Shown: positions 9,116 through 28,670 of the stretch, piece by piece
Position numbering within the stretch: position 1 is the first letter of the stretch
Layout of the letters: every line of letters begins with the position of its first letter
DNA from: Chitinophaga caeni
GTDB taxonomy: Bacteria > Bacteroidota > Bacteroidia > Chitinophagales > Chitinophagaceae
Assembly (NCBI RefSeq): GCF_002557795.1
Contig: NZ_CP023777.1
Span: 4,163,001-4,227,000 of the forward strand
Direction of reading: 5' to 3'
DNA length: 64,000 nt
Program-made: the position numbers and the translations under genes
The notes under the pieces: generated by a model
Database searches by the model: none
Told to the model about the DNA's origin: nothing
Seen by the model: only the letters and a program-made list of their open reading frames with translations

Positions 9116-9143
9116 GCAAACTCCCCGATGTCATATTTTTTTT
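9095..9143 (+). terminator. Strong intrinsic terminator overlapping the end of traD
   Basis: Arms 9095-9110 (GACATCGGGGAGTTTG) and 9117-9132 pair perfectly over 16 bp, with a 6-nt loop that contains the traD stop codon, followed by a run of eight T at 9136-9143. It should end transcription of the traA-traD block just where the opposite-strand TIR island begins. Confidence 0.85.
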
Positions 9144-9750
9144 ATAATTTCCAGTTTAAAACGCTGTCCAAAGGATGCTGTTGTTGGCTATTTGAAAAGA
9201 TTCGACTTTCATCAATTAATGATTTCTCAATTCTATCGGTGATTTTTGAAATATACTCATTTAAACTTTTAGTGCCTCGTATTAAATAACCAACCTGTAA
9301 GTAGTCTGGAAGAGTCTTTTCTGCTATGTCTTTCAACGTCAGAACAGACAGTTTAATTCTATCATTTAGATTTTTCAATTTTTCTTGGTCTAAAATTGAA
9401 GCATGACCATATCCAACTTCAAACGGAACCCACAAAGATTTATATGTTTGGTCAGAAACGACCACCATCATATGGGTACTCTTTTTTATACCATCTTTGA
9501 TACTCTCTGTAATTTTTATTGGGTCTCCAATTGACGAAGCATGTTGCAATTTATCATCTTCTTCATCCAAATAATAGTCAATCCCAGCATTTTTGAAATA
9601 TTTTGCGATTTCTTTACAAGCGTTTTTGTCTTCTCTTTTATGACTTAAAAATACGCAAGGTCTTTTGAAAAGCTGATTATCCTTGACAGATTCGAGTGCC
9701 CAAGTAAGATTTTCGTATGTATTCGCTTTATTAAATCCTTTTTTTACCAT
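9142..9750 (-). CDS. TIR-domain protein 1 of TIR/SLATT island
   Basis: The 202-aa product is a TIR-domain protein. Residues 31-41 (PCVFLSHKRED) form the first strand and the SHxxxD box. GIDYYLDEED follows. SLWVPFEVGYG at about 105-115 carries the glutamate (E111) that aligns with the catalytic Glu of NADase TIRs. The C-terminal 70 residues are helical and lack a recognisable second domain. The start is placed at the ATG at 9750, which follows the SLATT stop as TAA-TA-ATG; an overlapping GTG at 9777 is less likely. As last gene of a four-gene minus-strand operon it probably makes or breaks a nucleotide signal, or is itself an effector; that is inference. Confidence 0.85.
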   Translation of the reverse strand: MVKKGFNKANTYENLTWALESVKDNQLFKRPCVFLSHKREDKNACKEIAKYFKNAGIDYYLDEEDDKLQHASSIGDPIKITESIKDGIKKSTHMMVVVSDQTYKSLWVPFEVGYGHASILDQEKLKNLNDRIKLSVLTLKDIAEKTLPDYLQVGYLIRGTKSLNEYISKITDRIEKSLIDESRIFSNSQQQHPLDSVLNWKL

Positions 9751-9752
9751 TA

Positions 9753-10640
9753 TTATAATCGCTTTTGTGCTAACCACATTGTATGTTCCCGTGACATTGC
9801 ATTTTCTGAATCCAATACAAACTTTGAAAAGACATCTTCTTCAGTGATAAATTTCGCTTCATTTTTTATCAGATTTAATTCTGACATCGCTGTATTATAA
9901 GCCTCCTTATTCTCCTGATATTTTTTTAGCTGTAACCAACTGAAAAAGCTTGCAGAAAGGGTCGTAAAAACACCTACTAAATTGAAATCTGAATTTGGAT
10001 GCAAAATGAGATATACTATAGAAACTATGGCTAAAAATTGCATGATGATAACACCCCAAAACCATCTTTCGTATTTAGTTTTATTCTTGTCTGCTTTAGA
10101 TGTGTACCAGTCGATTTGATTATCAATGCGGTTTCTTAAATAAAAATCCTTTCGTCCTTGAAGGTCTAAGTCACGTACTTCATTCATTTTAGGCGTGATA
10201 GTTTCCTTTCTAATATCAGAAGCTTTCAAAAATGCATGAATGTCTTTAAATTCTTCACGTATTTCCTTAATTCTGTCAATAAATCTTTTCTCAACGTCTT
10301 CCTTACTTAAGCTGTTCTCGAAATACTCTGACTTCATCATAAATCTCCATGTCAAAGTTTTTGCAGACTCTGCCAATGCTCGCCCTCTATACCAAACGTC
10401 TTCATATTTTTTTGATTTGATTACCAAAGAAAGAACGAATGCAACAGATAAAATTAGACCAGAAACAATGTAAATAACCCGTTTAGTATCCTCGCTATTA
10501 TAATTGTAAATTGCGAGTACAGAGCTTATACACATTAATATCAAATCCCACCGGACATACCGGACATAATTTTTTTGCGCTAATAAAGAAGCATTGTCAC
10601 CTGCAATGAAATAATTGGGGAAATCTGAGTTATTTATCAT
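9753..10640 (-). CDS. Membrane protein with two SLATT-like 2TM units (DUF4231-like)
   Basis: The 295-aa product has two pairs of transmembrane helices: about 31-47 with 54-74, and 193-213 with 221-237. Each is followed by a charged helical part (WYRGRALAESAKTLTWRF at 83-100; the C-terminal block ends SREHTMWLAQKR). This is the layout of proteins carrying two SLATT domains, which are membrane effectors associated with SMODS, SLOG and TIR signalling systems. It overlaps the stop of the upstream DUF1863-like gene by 4 nt (ATGA), so they are translationally coupled. I see no SLOG or Macro sensor domain, so how it would sense a signal is unclear. The expected role is membrane permeabilisation on activation. 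Confidence 0.8.
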   Translation of the reverse strand: MINNSDFPNYFIAGDNASLLAQKNYVRYVRWDLILMCISSVLAIYNYNSEDTKRVIYIVSGLILSVAFVLSLVIKSKKYEDVWYRGRALAESAKTLTWRFMMKSEYFENSLSKEDVEKRFIDRIKEIREEFKDIHAFLKASDIRKETITPKMNEVRDLDLQGRKDFYLRNRIDNQIDWYTSKADKNKTKYERWFWGVIIMQFLAIVSIVYLILHPNSDFNLVGVFTTLSASFFSWLQLKKYQENKEAYNTAMSELNLIKNEAKFITEEDVFSKFVLDSENAMSREHTMWLAQKRL

Positions 10641-11221
10641 GGTCTTACTTTTGTATAATTTGAAATTGGATGACTTCTCTTGTCAAATGCTTTACCAATA
10701 TAAAATTCTGGATTCGAACAGAAATCATCCCATTTAACAAGAACACAATATCTATCGTCTTCAGTCCACGCACATTTATAATTTGGAATGTAATAGTTAT
10801 AAGAAAATTCAGAAATTACTGTATCGAGATTAATATTCACAATGTTATGGTTATTTCCACATTTTGTACAAAAGGTTCTACCGCCGTACACGCTATCGTA
10901 CATGCTTGGCAAGACAACGCCTAAAATTCCATTCTTTGTATTACCAATCCCATTGTATAAAGATGCTTGCAATTCCCTTTTGAGGAAATTTTGATTTTCG
11001 TAAAATAAATTCTCGGCAGATTTCTCACCTATCAAAAATATCGTTACCGTTGAGTCGGAAAGATAGTCTTCACGAATCTTTCTCATTATATAATCTTCAT
11101 TATCAGATTCTATAGGTTCATGAAGTGATTTATCAATCATATCTACATCAAGATAATCATGAATATATCTTTTGTAAGCAATGTCCTCTGTTTTAAAAGA
11201 AATAAAGCATTTATGAGCCAT
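10637..11221 (-). CDS. TIR-like (MTH538/DUF1863-type) protein 2 of the island
   Basis: The 194-aa product begins MAHKCFISFKTED, a TIR first strand of the DUF1863/MTH538 class. VTIFLIGEKSAENLF (59-73) follows, and then LKRELQASLYN, where E83 sits at the position of the TIR catalytic Glu. A CxxC pair (CTKC, 118-121) and a tail ending in KWDDFCSNPEFYIGKAFDKR are typical of this class. The start is the ATG at 11221, 7 bp after the upstream stop; a TTG at 11257 would overlap the neighbour. ThsB of Thoeris systems belongs to the same broad TIR class. The function is probably NAD-derived signal synthesis, by family analogy. Confidence 0.78.
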   Translation of the reverse strand: MAHKCFISFKTEDIAYKRYIHDYLDVDMIDKSLHEPIESDNEDYIMRKIREDYLSDSTVTIFLIGEKSAENLFYENQNFLKRELQASLYNGIGNTKNGILGVVLPSMYDSVYGGRTFCTKCGNNHNIVNINLDTVISEFSYNYYIPNYKCAWTEDDRYCVLVKWDDFCSNPEFYIGKAFDKRSHPISNYTKVRP

Positions 11222-11228
11222 AAGTAAA

Positions 11229-11633
11229 TTATTTAGCGTGTGTTCTAATGGCTTCAACTATGCTTTCAGTATTCCACCTGACATCAATCACCGACCTTGA
11301 ATAAACCACTTGCGATATTCTCTCTTGTCCTCTTGGTATAACGCCTATGATTGAAATACCAAGCGATTTTGCAGTATCTAATTCCCAAGGCATCCAATCG
11401 CTATGTGAGGCATATATACCAGCCAAAGCCAATACAATATTTGATGACTGAATTTTGGCTCTCAATCTGGCTTTGATATATGGAGCATTAGTAGAGTTTA
11501 TTGGTACATCTTTCGATGCTTCTGTAAATTCAACATTGAAGTACCCCCTTGAATTCAGAAGTTTTCGTAGGTCTTCCAAATCACTGGAATGCGCCCATGA
11601 ATGACTGATGAAAATTTTGTAGTTGTTTGCCAT
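11229..11633 (-). CDS. ThsB-like TIR protein 3 of the island
   Basis: The 134-aa product is a compact single TIR domain: KIFISHSWAHSSD at 6-18 and SDWMPWELDTAK at about 78-89, with E84 as the presumed catalytic Glu. The ISHSW opening is characteristic of Thoeris ThsB-type TIRs, which make cyclic-ADP-ribose-type signals. It is the first gene of the minus-strand operon, with an ATG start at 11633 and an AT-rich upstream stretch that would hold the promoter. It is short for a TIR but appears complete. Confidence 0.83.
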   Translation of the reverse strand: MANNYKIFISHSWAHSSDLEDLRKLLNSRGYFNVEFTEASKDVPINSTNAPYIKARLRAKIQSSNIVLALAGIYASHSDWMPWELDTAKSLGISIIGVIPRGQERISQVVYSRSVIDVRWNTESIVEAIRTHAK

Positions 11634-12250: not shown

Positions 12251-12583
12251 ATGAGCAATTACAATATCAATAAAGGTATCGGCAGGACGGTCGAGTTCAA
12301 AGGACTAAAAGCGCAATACCTGTTCATTTTCGCAGGTGGTCTGCTCGGCGTGCTTATTCTCGTCATGGTCATGTACATGGCAGGCGTAAACTCCTACGTG
12401 TGCCTGTTTATCGGGGCAGGCGGAGCATCGATTATCGTTTGGCAAACATTCGCATTGAACGGTAAATACGGCGAATACGGATTGATGAAAGTCGGGGCAA
12501 AGAAAAGGCATCCGAAATACATCATCTGTCGCAGAGCCGTACACCGCTATTTAAAATTCACTTCTAAATCCAGTCATTTATGA
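12251..12583 (+). CDS. traF: Conjugative transfer protein TraF (DUF4133)
   Basis: The 110-aa membrane protein resembles VirB3 in layout: a short basic N-terminus (MSNYNINKGIGRTVEFKGLK), two adjacent transmembrane helices and a conserved tail with YGEYGLMKVGAKKRHPKYI. The ATG at 12251 is chosen over an upstream in-frame GTG because family members start with a short MxxYxINKG segment. It overlaps the start of traG by 4 nt (ATGA), so translation is coupled. Confidence 0.9.
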   Translation: MSNYNINKGIGRTVEFKGLKAQYLFIFAGGLLGVLILVMVMYMAGVNSYVCLFIGAGGASIIVWQTFALNGKYGEYGLMKVGAKKRHPKYIICRRAVHRYLKFTSKSSHL

Positions 12584-13947
12584 GAAATACAGGAAAAGCC
12601 ACAACGTTGGAGAGCAAGTTTCCATTACTGGCGGTGGAACACAACTGCATCATATCAAAGGATGCGGACATCACGGCTTGCTATCGGGTACACCTGCCGG
12701 AACTATTCACGGTGGCATCGGCAGAGTACGATGCCATCCATTCGGCTTGGCATAAGGCTATCAAGACATTGCCGGATTACACCATTGTCCACAAACAGGA
12801 CTGGTACATCAAGGAAAGTTATGAGCCGGATATGGCACAGGACGGGTTGAGTTTCCTTGCCAAATCCTATCAACAGCATTTCAACGAACGTCCTTTTTTA
12901 AACCATTACTGTTACCTGTTCCTAACCAAGACGACAAAGGAAAGGATGCGGATGCAGAGCAACTTTAGTTCGCTTTGCAAAGGTGTCCTTATCCCGAAAG
13001 AAATTAGGGATAAAGAAACCGTCCGCAGGTTTATGGAAGCGGTCGCACAGTTTGAGCGCATTATCAATGACAGCGGTTTTGTGAAACTGGAACGCTTGAC
13101 CGAGGATGACATCATCGGAACAGGCGACAGACAGGGATTACTCGAACAGTACCTTACCCTGTCAAGGGAAACCGGAACGCCTATGCAAGATATAGCTTTG
13201 GGCAGTGAGGATGTGCGTATCGGAAACAAAAGGCTGTGCCTGCACACCCTGTCCGACACGGACGATTTGCCCAACACGGTATCGTCCAATACACGGTATG
13301 AAAAGCTGTCCACAGACAGGAGCGATTGCCTGTTGTCCTTTGCCTCTCCGGTCGGCTTGCTCCTTAGCTGTAACCATATCTATAACCAGTACCTGTTTTT
13401 GGATAACAGCGATGAGAACCTGCGCAAGTTTGAAAAGTCAGCCCGTAACATGCACTCATTGGCAAGGTACAGCCGAGCCAATCAGATTAACAAAGAATGG
13501 ATTGAAAGGTATCTGAACGAAGCGCACAGCTTCGGGCTTTCCTCCATCCGTGCGCATTTCAACGTGATGGCGTGGTCGGACGACCCGAACGAACTCAAAC
13601 AGCTAAAAAACGACACGGGCAGTGCGCTCGCTTTGATGGAATGCAAGCCGAGGCATAATACAGTGGATGTTGCGACACTGTATTGGGCAGGCATGGCAGG
13701 AAATGCAGGTGACTTTCCGGCAGAGGAAAGTTTTTATACGTTTATCGAACCTGCGCTGTGTTTCTTCACCGAGGAAACCAACTACCAAAATTCGCCATCA
13801 CCTTTCGGTATCAAGATGGCAGACCGATTGACAGGAAAGCCTATCCATTTGGATATATCAGATTTGCCTATGAAGCGTGGCATTATCACAAATCGAAACC
13901 GCTTCGTGTTAGGCCCATCTGGGGGTTGGCGGGCTATTCTTAATTGA
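12580..13947 (+). CDS. traG: TraG conjugation ATPase, N-terminal part (ends inside the Walker A hairpin insertion)
   Basis: TraG is the VirB4-like ATPase that drives assembly of the mating apparatus. This frame covers residues 1-447 of the expected protein (VirB4 N-terminal region; PIHLDISDLPMKRGIITNR just before the P-loop) and reads FVLGPS at its end. The normal sequence would continue GSGKSFF, but a 50-nt hairpin insertion gives seven extra codons after a glycine (GWRAILN) and a TGA at 13945-13947. The remaining ATPase core is encoded in another frame from 13971 on. Removing 13921-13970 restores a single 835-aa product of the usual TraG length. The gene is either broken, or decoded by bypass or RNA processing. 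Confidence 0.9.
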   Translation: MRNTGKATTLESKFPLLAVEHNCIISKDADITACYRVHLPELFTVASAEYDAIHSAWHKAIKTLPDYTIVHKQDWYIKESYEPDMAQDGLSFLAKSYQQHFNERPFLNHYCYLFLTKTTKERMRMQSNFSSLCKGVLIPKEIRDKETVRRFMEAVAQFERIINDSGFVKLERLTEDDIIGTGDRQGLLEQYLTLSRETGTPMQDIALGSEDVRIGNKRLCLHTLSDTDDLPNTVSSNTRYEKLSTDRSDCLLSFASPVGLLLSCNHIYNQYLFLDNSDENLRKFEKSARNMHSLARYSRANQINKEWIERYLNEAHSFGLSSIRAHFNVMAWSDDPNELKQLKNDTGSALALMECKPRHNTVDVATLYWAGMAGNAGDFPAEESFYTFIEPALCFFTEETNYQNSPSPFGIKMADRLTGKPIHLDISDLPMKRGIITNRNRFVLGPSGGWRAILN

Positions 13948-13970
13948 GTAGCCCGCCAACCCTCCAAACT
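13921..13970 (+). other. 50-nt hairpin insertion exactly within the traG Walker A codons
   Basis: Arms 13923-13936 (GGGTTGGCGGGCTA) and 13949-13962 pair perfectly over 14 bp. The helix extends outward by a G-U and a G-C pair to 13921-13964, and inward by three pairs, leaving the loop TTAATT. The zero-frame stop TGA (13945-13947) overlaps the loop side, and TTG-A offers a restart. Codons before it read GGC CCA TCT (G P S) and after it GGA AGT GGA AAA TCA (G S G K S). If GGG (13921-13923) is take-off and GGA (13971-13973) landing, the skipped length is 50 nt. Confidence 0.85.
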
Positions 13971-15137
13971 GGAAGTGGAAAATCATTCTTCACCAATCAC
14001 ATGGTGAGGCAGTATTATGAGCAAGGCTCTCATGTACTATTGGTCGATACGGGCAACTCCTATCAAGGGTTGTGCGAACTGATTAAGGGAAAGACAAAAG
14101 GCAAAGACGGTGTGTATTTTACCTACACCGAAGACAACCCGATAGCATTCAATCCATTTTATACGGATGACGGCGTAATCGACATCGAGAAAAGGGAAAG
14201 TATCAAGACTTTGATACTGACTTTATGGAAGCGTGACGATGAACCGCCGACCCGTTCAGAGGAAGTTGCATTGTCCAATGCCGTGAGCGGTTATATCGAC
14301 CGTATCAAGCAAAGCGATGAATATCCCTCTTTCAACGGATTTTACGAGTACGTAAAGGGTGACTATAAAAAGGTACTGGAAGACAAACAGGTAAGGGAAA
14401 AAGACTTTGACCTCGCAAATTTTCTGAACGTGCTTGAACCCTATTACAAGGGCGGAGAGTACGACTATCTGTTGAACTCCGACAAGCAACTTGACCTGCT
14501 TTCCAAACGCTTTATCGTGTTTGAAATTGATGCGATTAAAGACCACAAAATCCTCTTTCCCATAGTGACCATCATCATTATGGAAGTATTCATCAATAAG
14601 ATGCGCAGGCTCAAAGGTGTGCGCAAAATGATACTGATTGAGGAAGCGTGGAAAGCCATCGCCAAAGAGGGAATGGCGGAGTATATCAAGTACCTGTTTA
14701 AGACCGTCCGCAAATTTTTTGGTGAGGCTATCGTGGTCACGCAGGAAGTGGACGACATCATCCAGTCACCCGTGGTCAAGGAAAGTATCATCAACAATTC
14801 CGACTGTAAAATCCTGCTTGACCAACGCAAGTACATGAACAAATTCGATGCGATACAGGAAATGTTGGGGCTTACAGAAAAGGAAAAATCCCAAATCCTT
14901 TCCATCAATCAGAACAATGACCCGTCAAGGCTTTACAAAGAGGTGTGGATTGGGCTTGGCGGTACGCACTCCGCCGTGTATGCCACAGAGGTTTCGCTCG
15001 AAGAATACCTCGCATACACCACAGAGGAAACCGAAAAAATGGAAGTCATGCAAATGGCATCCGAACTGGACGGCAATGTGGAACTGGCGATAAAGCGCAT
15101 TGCCCAACGGAGACGTGAGAACGCAAATAATTATTAA
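13944..15137 (+). CDS. traG: TraG conjugation ATPase, C-terminal part (ATPase core after the insertion)
   Basis: The frame starts formally at TTG 13944, overlapping the upstream stop by 4 nt, and reads SSPPTLQ from the hairpin before entering genuine TraG sequence at TGSGKSFFTNHMVRQYY. It carries the rest of the VirB4-like motor: VLLVDTGNSYQGLCELIKG, KRFIVFEIDAI, the Walker B RKMILIEEAWKAI and VVTQEVDDI. The codons are well preserved without further stops over 388 codons, which argues that the gene is under selection or that the insertion is recent. On its own this chain lacks a proper GxxxxGKS, since leucine replaces the first glycine. Confidence 0.88.
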   Translation: MSSPPTLQTGSGKSFFTNHMVRQYYEQGSHVLLVDTGNSYQGLCELIKGKTKGKDGVYFTYTEDNPIAFNPFYTDDGVIDIEKRESIKTLILTLWKRDDEPPTRSEEVALSNAVSGYIDRIKQSDEYPSFNGFYEYVKGDYKKVLEDKQVREKDFDLANFLNVLEPYYKGGEYDYLLNSDKQLDLLSKRFIVFEIDAIKDHKILFPIVTIIIMEVFINKMRRLKGVRKMILIEEAWKAIAKEGMAEYIKYLFKTVRKFFGEAIVVTQEVDDIIQSPVVKESIINNSDCKILLDQRKYMNKFDAIQEMLGLTEKEKSQILSINQNNDPSRLYKEVWIGLGGTHSAVYATEVSLEEYLAYTTEETEKMEVMQMASELDGNVELAIKRIAQRRRENANNY

Positions 15138-26356: not shown

Positions 26357-26382
26357 CCCAATGAACAAGGAAAACTGTTGTG

Positions 26383-27975
26383 ATGAGAAAGGCAGATTTA
26401 TACATACGTGTATCGACAGACGAGCAAGCAGACAAGGGATATTCGCAACGTGACCAAGAAGACCGATTAAGAAAATATTGTGAGATAAAAGGTATTCCGG
26501 TAAGGGATGTTTATATAGAAGACCATTCGGCAAAATCTTTCAAACGTCCAGAGTGGCAGAAATATTTATCCAACCTACGCAAAACAAAGAACAACAAAGC
26601 GGGGTCAATAATATTATTTACCAAATGGGATAGGTTCAGTCGAAACGCAGGGGATGCCTATCAGATGATTAACCAGTTACGGACACATGGCGTTGAACCT
26701 GTTGCGATAGAACAGCCCTTAGACCTTACCATTCCCGAAAATAAAATCATGCTTGCGTTCTATCTTGCTTCACCGGAAGTTGAGAACGACAGGCGTGCAT
26801 TGAACGTTTTTCACGGAATGCGCAGGGCAAAAAAAGAAGGGCGGTATATGGGTACTGCTCCATTGGGATATATCAATAAGATAACAGAGGGCAAAAAAAA
26901 ATTCATTGCACCCCATGATTTTGAAGCACCGCTTTTAAAATGGGCGTTTGAACAAATCGTTTCCAATAACTTCAATACCGAACAGATATGGAAAATGGTT
27001 CGGGAGAAAGCCGATGGAAAAGGTCGGTTCAGCAAAAATAACTTTTGGGTAGCCGTCCGAAACCCCTTGTACTGTGGCAAAATATTTATTCCTCCCTACA
27101 AAGAGGAAAAGGGATATTTTGTCAAAGGACAGCATGAGCCATTAATCAGCGAAAAGACGTTTGCGGATGTACAGGAAATTCTCGATGGGAGAAAGAGGGT
27201 TGTAAAGCCTAAAATCGTGGCTATGGACAATCTACCGCTTAGAGGGTTTCTCAAATGTCCTAAATGCGACCGTATGCTGACAGGAAGTGCCTCAAAGGGA
27301 AAGATGGGCAATTACTATTATTACTATCATTGTAGTTCCGCCTGCGGAACACGTTTCAAAGCTGAACCTGCCAATGAGGCTTTCCTAAAGCAATTACGGT
27401 ATATGTCACCAAAAGAGGGTATGGTCGATGTTTTTATCGAAGCCTTTATAAAAGACTTCAATAACAAAACCAAAGCCCAAAACACAGAACGGGCAAATAT
27501 CATAGGTGAGATTGATGCGTTGAACAAACGCTATCAAAATGCGCTTTTAAAAAACGCCGATGGAGAAATGGCAGATGACGATTTCCAAGAAGTAAAGAAA
27601 TTGACCAAAGGAAAGATTGAGGTTTTGGAAAGAAGATTAAACGACTTGGCAGTAGTCGGAACGGAGATTAAAGACTTGGTAGCATCTACCTTAAAAAAGG
27701 TAGCAAACATTGACAGACGCTTTGAAAACGGCGATATTGAGGAAAAAAGGCTTATAGTGAGTTCGATGTTCCCCGATTTTTTGGAATTTGACGGAACAAG
27801 ACATCGAACTCCGAGACTAAATTCTGCGATTGCTCTTATTTATCAGAATAACAGTAAGTTACAGGGTAAAAAAAATGGGACAAGTCTTTCTTTTTTAGAC
27901 TTGTCCCAAGAAGTGATCCCGCTGGGACTCGAACCCAGGGCCCATACATTAAAAGTGTATTGCTCTACCAACTGA
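26383..27975 (+). CDS. Large serine recombinase (ICE integrase), C-terminus encoded in tRNA-Lys
   Basis: The 530-aa serine integrase catalyses insertion and probably excision of the element. Residues 1-150 form the resolvase domain (MRKADLYIRVSTDEQADKG with catalytic S11; FTKWDRFSRNAGDA). The recombinase domain follows, then a zinc-ribbon part (CPKC and HCSSACG, about 290-320) and a coiled coil (residues ~365-430). The ATG at 26383 is used; a GTG directly before it is also possible. The last ~20 codons read GLEPRAHTLKVYCSTN, which is translated tRNA-Lys, and the stop at 27973-27975 lies in the tRNA D-arm. The natural C-terminus therefore depends on where the element is integrated. Confidence 0.93.
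   Translation: MRKADLYIRVSTDEQADKGYSQRDQEDRLRKYCEIKGIPVRDVYIEDHSAKSFKRPEWQKYLSNLRKTKNNKAGSIILFTKWDRFSRNAGDAYQMINQLRTHGVEPVAIEQPLDLTIPENKIMLAFYLASPEVENDRRALNVFHGMRRAKKEGRYMGTAPLGYINKITEGKKKFIAPHDFEAPLLKWAFEQIVSNNFNTEQIWKMVREKADGKGRFSKNNFWVAVRNPLYCGKIFIPPYKEEKGYFVKGQHEPLISEKTFADVQEILDGRKRVVKPKIVAMDNLPLRGFLKCPKCDRMLTGSASKGKMGNYYYYYHCSSACGTRFKAEPANEAFLKQLRYMSPKEGMVDVFIEAFIKDFNNKTKAQNTERANIIGEIDALNKRYQNALLKNADGEMADDDFQEVKKLTKGKIEVLERRLNDLAVVGTEIKDLVASTLKKVANIDRRFENGDIEEKRLIVSSMFPDFLEFDGTRHRTPRLNSAIALIYQNNSKLQGKKNGTSLSFLDLSQEVIPLGLEPRAHTLKVYCSTN
27868..27907 (-). terminator. Intrinsic terminator of tRNA-Lys inside the recombinase coding region
   Basis: On the minus strand GGGACAAGTC (27907-27898) and GACTTGTCCC (27886-27877) pair over 10 bp with an 11-nt loop, followed by A and eight T. 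It begins 7 nt after the tRNA 3' end. It lies on the ICE side of the junction and within the last codons of the recombinase, so one stretch serves as protein code on one strand and tRNA terminator on the other. Confidence 0.85.
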
Positions 27976-28268: not shown

Positions 28269-28670
28269 CTATGGTAATTGACTCATATCTGCATAAAAGA
28301 TCTCCCAGGTATGACCATCAATATCTGAAAAAGCCCTGCTGTACATCCAGCCGTGATCCTGGGCAGGAAGCGGTTCCGTGCCACCGGCTGCTATCGCATC
28401 CGAGAGCATTTTATCAACAGCTTCACGGCTCTCCACCGAAATAGCATTCAACACTTCAACATATTTCGATGTATCAGCAATTTCACGGCGCGTGAATGTT
28501 TTAAAGAATGGCTCTACTAATAACATCGCGAAAATATTTTCATCGATGATCATGCAGGTCGCGTTTTCATCGGTGAACTGCGGGTTAAAAGTGAATCCCA
28601 GCTTAGTGAAAAATGCTACCGTCGCATCTAAATTCTTTACGGGTAGGTTTACAAAAATTTGCCTTGACAT
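28269..28670 (-). CDS. VOC-family (glyoxalase/dioxygenase superfamily) protein
   Basis: The 133-aa protein has two beta-alpha-beta-beta-beta units typical of the vicinal-oxygen-chelate fold: QIFVNLPVKNLDATVAFFTKLGF at the start and WMYSRAFSDIDGHTWEIFYAD at the end, where the final E is a usual metal ligand. The substrate cannot be told; many such proteins annotated as lactoylglutathione lyase are uncharacterised. It is a single gene with its own terminator and is the first host gene beyond the ICE. Confidence 0.85.
   Translation of the reverse strand: MSRQIFVNLPVKNLDATVAFFTKLGFTFNPQFTDENATCMIIDENIFAMLLVEPFFKTFTRREIADTSKYVEVLNAISVESREAVDKMLSDAIAAGGTEPLPAQDHGWMYSRAFSDIDGHTWEIFYADMSQLP

Follow-up and report, generated by a model that had tools for sequence, protein, structure and literature searches.

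A hairpin that interrupts the Walker A codons of traG in Chitinophaga caeni and its relatives: a candidate translational bypass element

The interrupted traG gene and its surroundings

The window analysed here, a stretch of 64,000 nucleotides from the single-contig, 5.28-Mb genome of Chitinophaga caeni (NZ_CP023777.1, positions 4,163,001 to 4,227,000), includes genes of a Bacteroides-type conjugative element. Among them is traG, encoding a VirB4-like ATPase, the Walker A codons of which are split by a 50-nt segment made up almost entirely of one hairpin of 17–19 bp. The 5′ half of the gene (12580–13923, on the forward strand, like all the traG features given below) has 448 codons, counting the Gly codon of the putative take-off site, and specifies the Pfam domain DUF3875 and the start of P-loop_TraG. 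Its open reading frame (12580–13947) reads ...FVLGPSG, and then GWRAILN before ending at an in-frame TGA (13945–13947) in the loop and upper stem of the hairpin. The putative take-off codon, GGG (13921–13923), determines a Gly of the Walker A motif, and the putative landing codon, GGA (13971–13973), is the last codon of a 50-nt gap in the coding sequence (13924–13973) that is presumably bypassed. The 3′ half, from the rest of the Walker A motif onward, is an open frame from 13974 to 15137 (stop at 15135–15137), and the hairpin separates GPSG from SGKS.

The hairpin (13920–13967) is indicated both by folding and by covariation. Its core arms (13923–13939 and 13946–13962) flank the loop TTAATT and are 94% complementary over 17 positions, the odd one being a G-U pair; around the loop, the consensus of hairpins of the window's type is YATTCTTAATTGAGTR. 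Folding of 13901–13990 gave z = −5.8, and none of 200 shuffles folded as well, so coordinates and fold together bear out an earlier sequence-only reading, in which a hairpin segment with an in-frame TGA split the Walker A codons of traG. The segment is not an intrinsic terminator, as CCCTCCAAACT follows the core stem where a T-run would be expected, nor a known Rfam family (the best match in 13700–14200 scored 21.9 bits, against a gathering threshold of 100).

The P-loop_TraG domain and the accompanying tra operon place the gene among the TraG/VirB4 ATPases of conjugative transposons, and in a class-wide sample the four intact relatives nearest to it are open over 837–839 aa. Neighbouring tra genes have open frames too, and of eight proteins scanned from the tra region, seven match Pfam families of conjugation type. 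Also inside the element is a minus-strand cluster (9142–11633) with three scanned proteins that have TIR/ThsB-like and SLATT domains, and which is on that account probably a defence island. A large serine recombinase gene (26380–27975) is likely to encode the integrase of the element, and beyond it is a gene of the VOC superfamily (Glyoxalase/Ble-like_N; 28269–28670), for which a resistance role has no support here.

A second copy of traG in the same genome (G000:C1:4328720-4333704) is also interrupted, elsewhere in the gene, by a group II intron (RF00029, 57 bits) carrying a 607-aa ORF that, from its YADD motif, we take to be reverse-transcriptase-like. Many TraG relatives share tails such as GAPVKAA, CAPVKAA and VRREVA which, from the similar tail of this second copy, are probably further group II intron boundaries.

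Recurrence of the hairpin, and the codons at its edges

The sequence-only reading had put forward a search of other genomes for TraG hairpins in this position; with the window's own, 24 sites are now known, varying in both gap length and sequence. Twenty-one are readable, in 19 genomes, and comprise 15 distinct gap sequences, because seven gaps of the window type are identical. The other three were dropped ahead of the count of codon pairs: one in G335, which adjoins an N gap, and both of those in G1166, where long-read indels are suspected (as far as they are readable, these two show GGG/GGA). In G335 (C74:179652-180008) the same site is garbled by the N gap and low-complexity sequence, from which it seems that the hairpin may trouble assembly; but other genomes have it at those codons too, so it did not arise through misassembly of the C. 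caeni genome. Sphingobacterium psychroaquaticum, for example, shares both the hairpin and its site, with a loop one base shorter and a gap of 49 nt.

A covariance model of six members found sites in nine of 394 genomes of the window's own family and one of 197 of a second family (the one already known), and none in 199 genomes of a third; a model of eleven found them in seven of 17 genomes of one genus of the own family and seven of 251 of a fourth family, and in none of 69 of a fifth. Across the class-wide sample of 395 genomes, the 5′ half had 27 strong matches, and a frame of split size was present in two of them, namely the window's own and that of G681. When proteins were searched with the 5′ half, under a length limit that excludes full-length TraG, 18 of the best 120 of 4888 relatives ended at 452–455 aa in tails encoded by the hairpin (including GGWRAILN, ACRVILN and VCRADLN). 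Those with named sources include proteins of Chitinophaga eiseniae and Chryseobacterium rhizosphaerae, and for five of the 18 a C-half is listed from a genome whose longest contig is of equal length. The named relatives of the window's TraG belong to the Bacteroidota. No plasmid record covered 80% of a 181-nt query.

The codons at the two edges of the gap follow a rule. In all 21 readable sites, the take-off and landing codons fit a single wobble box: GGG/GGA in 14, GGT/GGC in one, TCC/TCT in two, TCC/TCC in one, TCT/TCT in two and TCG/TCA in one, the unequal pairs differing by third-position transitions only. There are two take-off positions, after Gly (GPSG|) in 15 sites and after Ser (GPS|) in six. 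If an arbitrary extra codon is supposed, and both possible positions are counted, the chance of such agreement is about 0.06 per independent lineage, which gives about 2e-4 for three independent origins (0.06 cubed) and 3e-9 for seven. The main alternative cause of matched codons could be duplication of a three-base target followed by drift. The six nucleotides upstream of the two codons match at four places in eight sites (the window and its closest kin) and at none to two in the other 13, which makes a long target duplication less likely; in a test for insertion sequences and MITEs, CTGG was found repeated in the window.

The length between the edges varies. Gaps of 41, 42, 44, 45, 46 and 49–53 nt occur over the 21 sites, representing all three frames. 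A gap of 50 nt, as in phage T4, to which the sequence-only reading had drawn attention, is therefore correct for the window and does not hold as a rule: it is found in nine of the 21 sites, eight of them with one hairpin type. The stem at take-off is of 14–22 bp throughout, beginning anywhere from the first base of the take-off codon to 2 nt after it, and the stop is the seventh to ninth codon past take-off in 20 of the 21 sites (the 39th in G1169).

Among 11 sequences, six of 13 stem pairs show two-sided changes and 99.3% of cells are paired. Four of five measures of covariation exceeded shuffles (0 or 1 of 500 reached them) in an alignment that was fitted to the structure of the model; the fifth, 'further pair types', did not (434 of 500 reached its value).

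A second conserved region may lie 3′ of the hairpin. In genes with hairpins of the window type, silent-site change is suppressed over the 45 nt after landing (13974–14018 in the window). The first 15 codons after landing differed at 64 of 378 third positions (0.17) among hairpin genes, against 0.545 in codons 31–150 (27 of the 55 pairs of 11 genes, being those with a background of at least 0.25), whereas hairpin-free genes, with 478 of 920 (0.52) against a background of 0.439, showed no suppression (72 of 78 pairs of 13 genes); the pairs are non-independent, being drawn from some three deep lineages. Before take-off, the last 15 codons are unsuppressed between the window and G123 (six or seven of 15 differ) and suppressed between G681 and G1364 (one of 14). 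In the Ser-type clade, the codons after landing show weak suppression or none. The window and G123 have zero silent differences in the 15 codons 3′ of the hairpin. That genes so distant should agree in hairpin and 3′ flank could be due to recent co-conversion rather than constraint, and since the two would look alike, we regard the silent-site evidence as supportive, not decisive. Within this stretch there is a possible, weakly indicated 3′ stem-loop of 8 bp (CUUCACCA/UGGUGAGG; 13988–14009): 20 of 200 shuffles of 13968–14030 folded as well. A counterpart was seen in five of seven folded stretches (z from −1.4 to −2.8) and was absent from G002 and G065; nearly identical letters occupy this position in genes that lack the hairpin, L233 among them.

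Selection on traG and the ways in which it might be expressed

In a tree of 69 3′ halves, 20 of them with the hairpin (G1169, having no 3′ frame long enough, is absent), the hairpin label has to change seven times, three of these changes being forced by supported branches. The hairpin seems, from this patchy distribution, to have been acquired by transfer or to have been lost often. G277, G309 and G1165 form a supported clade in which all members have the hairpin, with linkers and gap lengths that vary among them. The dN/dS values for 5′ and 3′ halves are 0.069 and 0.055 for G277–G309, and 0.042 and 0.038 for G277–G1165; for G309–G1165 the 5′ half is saturated and the 3′ half gives 0.045. Comparisons of the window with S. 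psychroaquaticum and with G1355 give 0.04–0.10. (Values of 0.000, and the rows for G681, G1364 and G1253, were left unused as artefacts of saturation or alignment.) By these estimates, both halves of traG are under strong purifying selection within hairpin-bearing clades. The window and G123 are separated by dS of 1.1 and 1.8, and yet the 47 nt between the edge codons differ at one place. Immediately after the hairpin, the P-loop codons still spell GSGKS, with synonymous choices that change from clade to clade, which makes it probable that they are read in the frame of the 3′ half.

Eighteen genomes were checked for a second TraG match at E ≤ 1e-30, and none was found in five well-assembled ones (G277, G309, G358, G002 and G1376); G1169, which is 83% complete, likewise has one TraG match only. 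The plain knockout that had been set up as the null hypothesis is contradicted both by dN/dS of about 0.04–0.07 in the two halves within the hairpin-only clade and by these five genomes, in which the interrupted TraG is the only match.

A related idea is that the hairpin is a selfish or mobile element which merely inactivates traG, conjugation being dead or helped by another copy. It would suit the patchy distribution, with its seven changes on the tree, and the position of G123, which falls among hairpin-free genes (at a fork that is not strongly supported) and yet has nearly the hairpin of the window; and in 12 of the 18 genomes checked, other TraG matches could take over from the split gene. 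We nevertheless consider it unlikely, in view of the purifying selection on both halves, the five good genomes with no second TraG match, the codon-pair rule, and the condition of the neighbourhoods, in that the window's tra genes are open and open frames (not identified one by one) flank traG in seven others.

Removal at the RNA level, by which the hairpin would be cut from the mRNA and the ends joined as in a tiny intron, would also account for gaps independent of frame, for purifying selection and for covariation in the hairpin. It does not predict the agreement within a wobble box that is seen in 21 of 21 edge-codon pairs, no Rfam match in 13700–14200 attains its gathering score, and we know of no splicing of 41–53-nt hairpins of this kind in bacteria. 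For these reasons we think it distinctly improbable.

It is harder still to believe that two proteins are made, with termination in the hairpin, coupled re-initiation at an overlapping TTG (TTGA) and cooperation between the halves. The 3′ frame does have a TTG past the last stop in ten of the 21 sites and a GTG in two more, and gene callers place the start of a C-half at a later ATG. In nine sites, however, that frame has no ATG, GTG or TTG between the last stop (scanned back to at most 30 nt ahead of the gap) and the P-loop, and the chain would be broken within the P-loop itself. Coupled re-initiation is thus rejected as a general mechanism. Frameshifting or stop readthrough across the hairpin, giving a TraG with an insertion in its P-loop, is scarcely credible: five of the 21 gaps are multiples of three, three of these (G309, G084:C8 and G1253) having a single in-frame stop, but the shift required differs between close relatives (the window, 50 nt; S. 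psychroaquaticum, 49 nt), G002 has two in-frame stops, and an insertion of at least 14 residues inside GxxxxGKS should abolish ATP binding.

The remaining possibility, programmed translational bypass, predicts the codon-pair rule, the freedom of frame, the constraint on the hairpin and selection on a single protein, and is on those grounds the best explanation. It was one of several options in the sequence-only reading, and is the one that gains most from the wobble-box rule (21 of 21), the dN/dS values and the five genomes with a single TraG. We think it probable that the traG segment is such an element, restoring the Walker A motif. The ribosome would read as far as a Gly (or Ser) codon at the foot of the strong hairpin. 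Once the hairpin was at the A site, the peptidyl-tRNA would release the take-off codon; the ribosome would then cross the gap of 41–53 nt, and that tRNA would re-pair at a landing codon from the wobble box of the first. Landing may be aided by another element lying 3′ of it, indicated by the silent-site constraint in genes of the window's type and perhaps in the form of a stem-loop. A nascent-peptide signal of the gene 60 kind would fall in the residues upstream of take-off, and these are conserved TraG sequence in any case. That a single polypeptide is made, and each step taken by the ribosome, we infer from anatomy, recurrence, covariation, the codon rule, selection and silent sites. The tRNA genes of the C. 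caeni genome include those for Gly with anticodons UCC, CCC and GCC, and for Ser with GGA, UGA and GCU. tRNA-Gly(UCC) decodes both GGG and GGA, while tRNA-Gly(CCC) would read GGG and pairs poorly with GGA, and its presence would complicate reading by the same tRNA at a GGG take-off codon.

Origin of the hairpin, and comparison with known systems

The loop sequence ATTCTTAATTGAGT also caps extended stems in viral contigs (loci L290-L316 and L317-L434), often with a T-run next to them. Among the viral loop matches listed, a stem of at least five pairs accompanied 22 of 118 exact loops, against six of 120 for a shuffled loop. Frequent as it is there, the loop is no mark of traG alone, and viral hairpins of this kind may be ancestral to those of traG. 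The C. caeni genome has no other exact copy of the loop; it has 17 matches with one mismatch, against four for a reversed-pattern control, and the seven of these that were inspected by eye all lacked such a hairpin. The patchy distribution would fit a mobile element that is also bypassed, and the hairpin may be mobile. More speculatively, and with rather more against it than for it, bacteria could harbour a class of mobile bypass elements: hairpins would enter the Walker A codons of conjugation ATPases, hopping by the same tRNA would spare the gene, and a factor binding the loop may set the level of the motor.

If the bypass reading is right, some TraG proteins annotated as 'truncated' may be products of functional genes, and the 15 distinct gaps, with two take-off positions and four codon boxes, form a natural bacterial series sufficient to dissect what ribosome hopping needs. 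As described in the accessible part of a 2016 review (PMC5009743), bypass was known to be in use in gene 60 of T4 and at 81 inserts in the mitochondrion of one yeast; there were few, unproven, further candidates, counterparts of gene 60 had long been presumed, and a regulatory use would widen interest in the phenomenon. A literature search weighted to open-access papers turned up, in what it listed, no account of TraG being bypassed, and the name TraG does not occur in the accessible parts of PMC5009743 and PMC3711429.

T4 gene 60 has matched Gly codons, a 50-nt gap, a stop directly 3′ of take-off and a 3′ stem-loop (PMC5009743 and PMC11194080, accessible parts). With it traG shares matched Gly codons, a stop inside the gap, in the window's type a gap of 50 nt, in the Gly-type members a take-off codon within the stem-loop, and possibly a similarly placed stem-loop 3′ of landing. 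Bypass in gene 60 is highly processive up to 56 nt, according to the accessible text of PMC11194080, and all the traG gaps (41–53 nt) are below that limit. The T4 gap is linked to a homing endonuclease, as the available portion of PMC5009743 describes it. Unlike that of gene 60, the traG stop is not adjacent to take-off, the hairpin nearly fills the gap, gap length is variable, Ser as well as Gly codons are used, and the gene is a conjugation gene of many bacterial species.

Short inserts in genes, skipped by ribosomes, also occur as the byp elements of Magnusiomyces capitatus mitochondria (PMC5009743 and PMC8211752, as far as accessible); they seem to be independent of mRNA context, with codons imperfectly matched in several cases (PMC5009743, accessible part). 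The traG element differs in being bacterial, in occupying one gene and one site, and in having a strong conserved hairpin and a strict codon-pair rule. Prevotella loescheii, like C. caeni, belongs to the Bacteroidota. A 29-nt hop has been reported in its adhesin gene, a different gene with a shorter gap, and in the account given by the accessible part of PMC5009743 this was not followed up. Finally, group II introns resemble the hairpin in that they too interrupt traG, as in the second copy of the C. caeni genome, and differ from it in being self-splicing RNAs of about 2.5 kb, with a reverse-transcriptase-like ORF and at another site in the gene.
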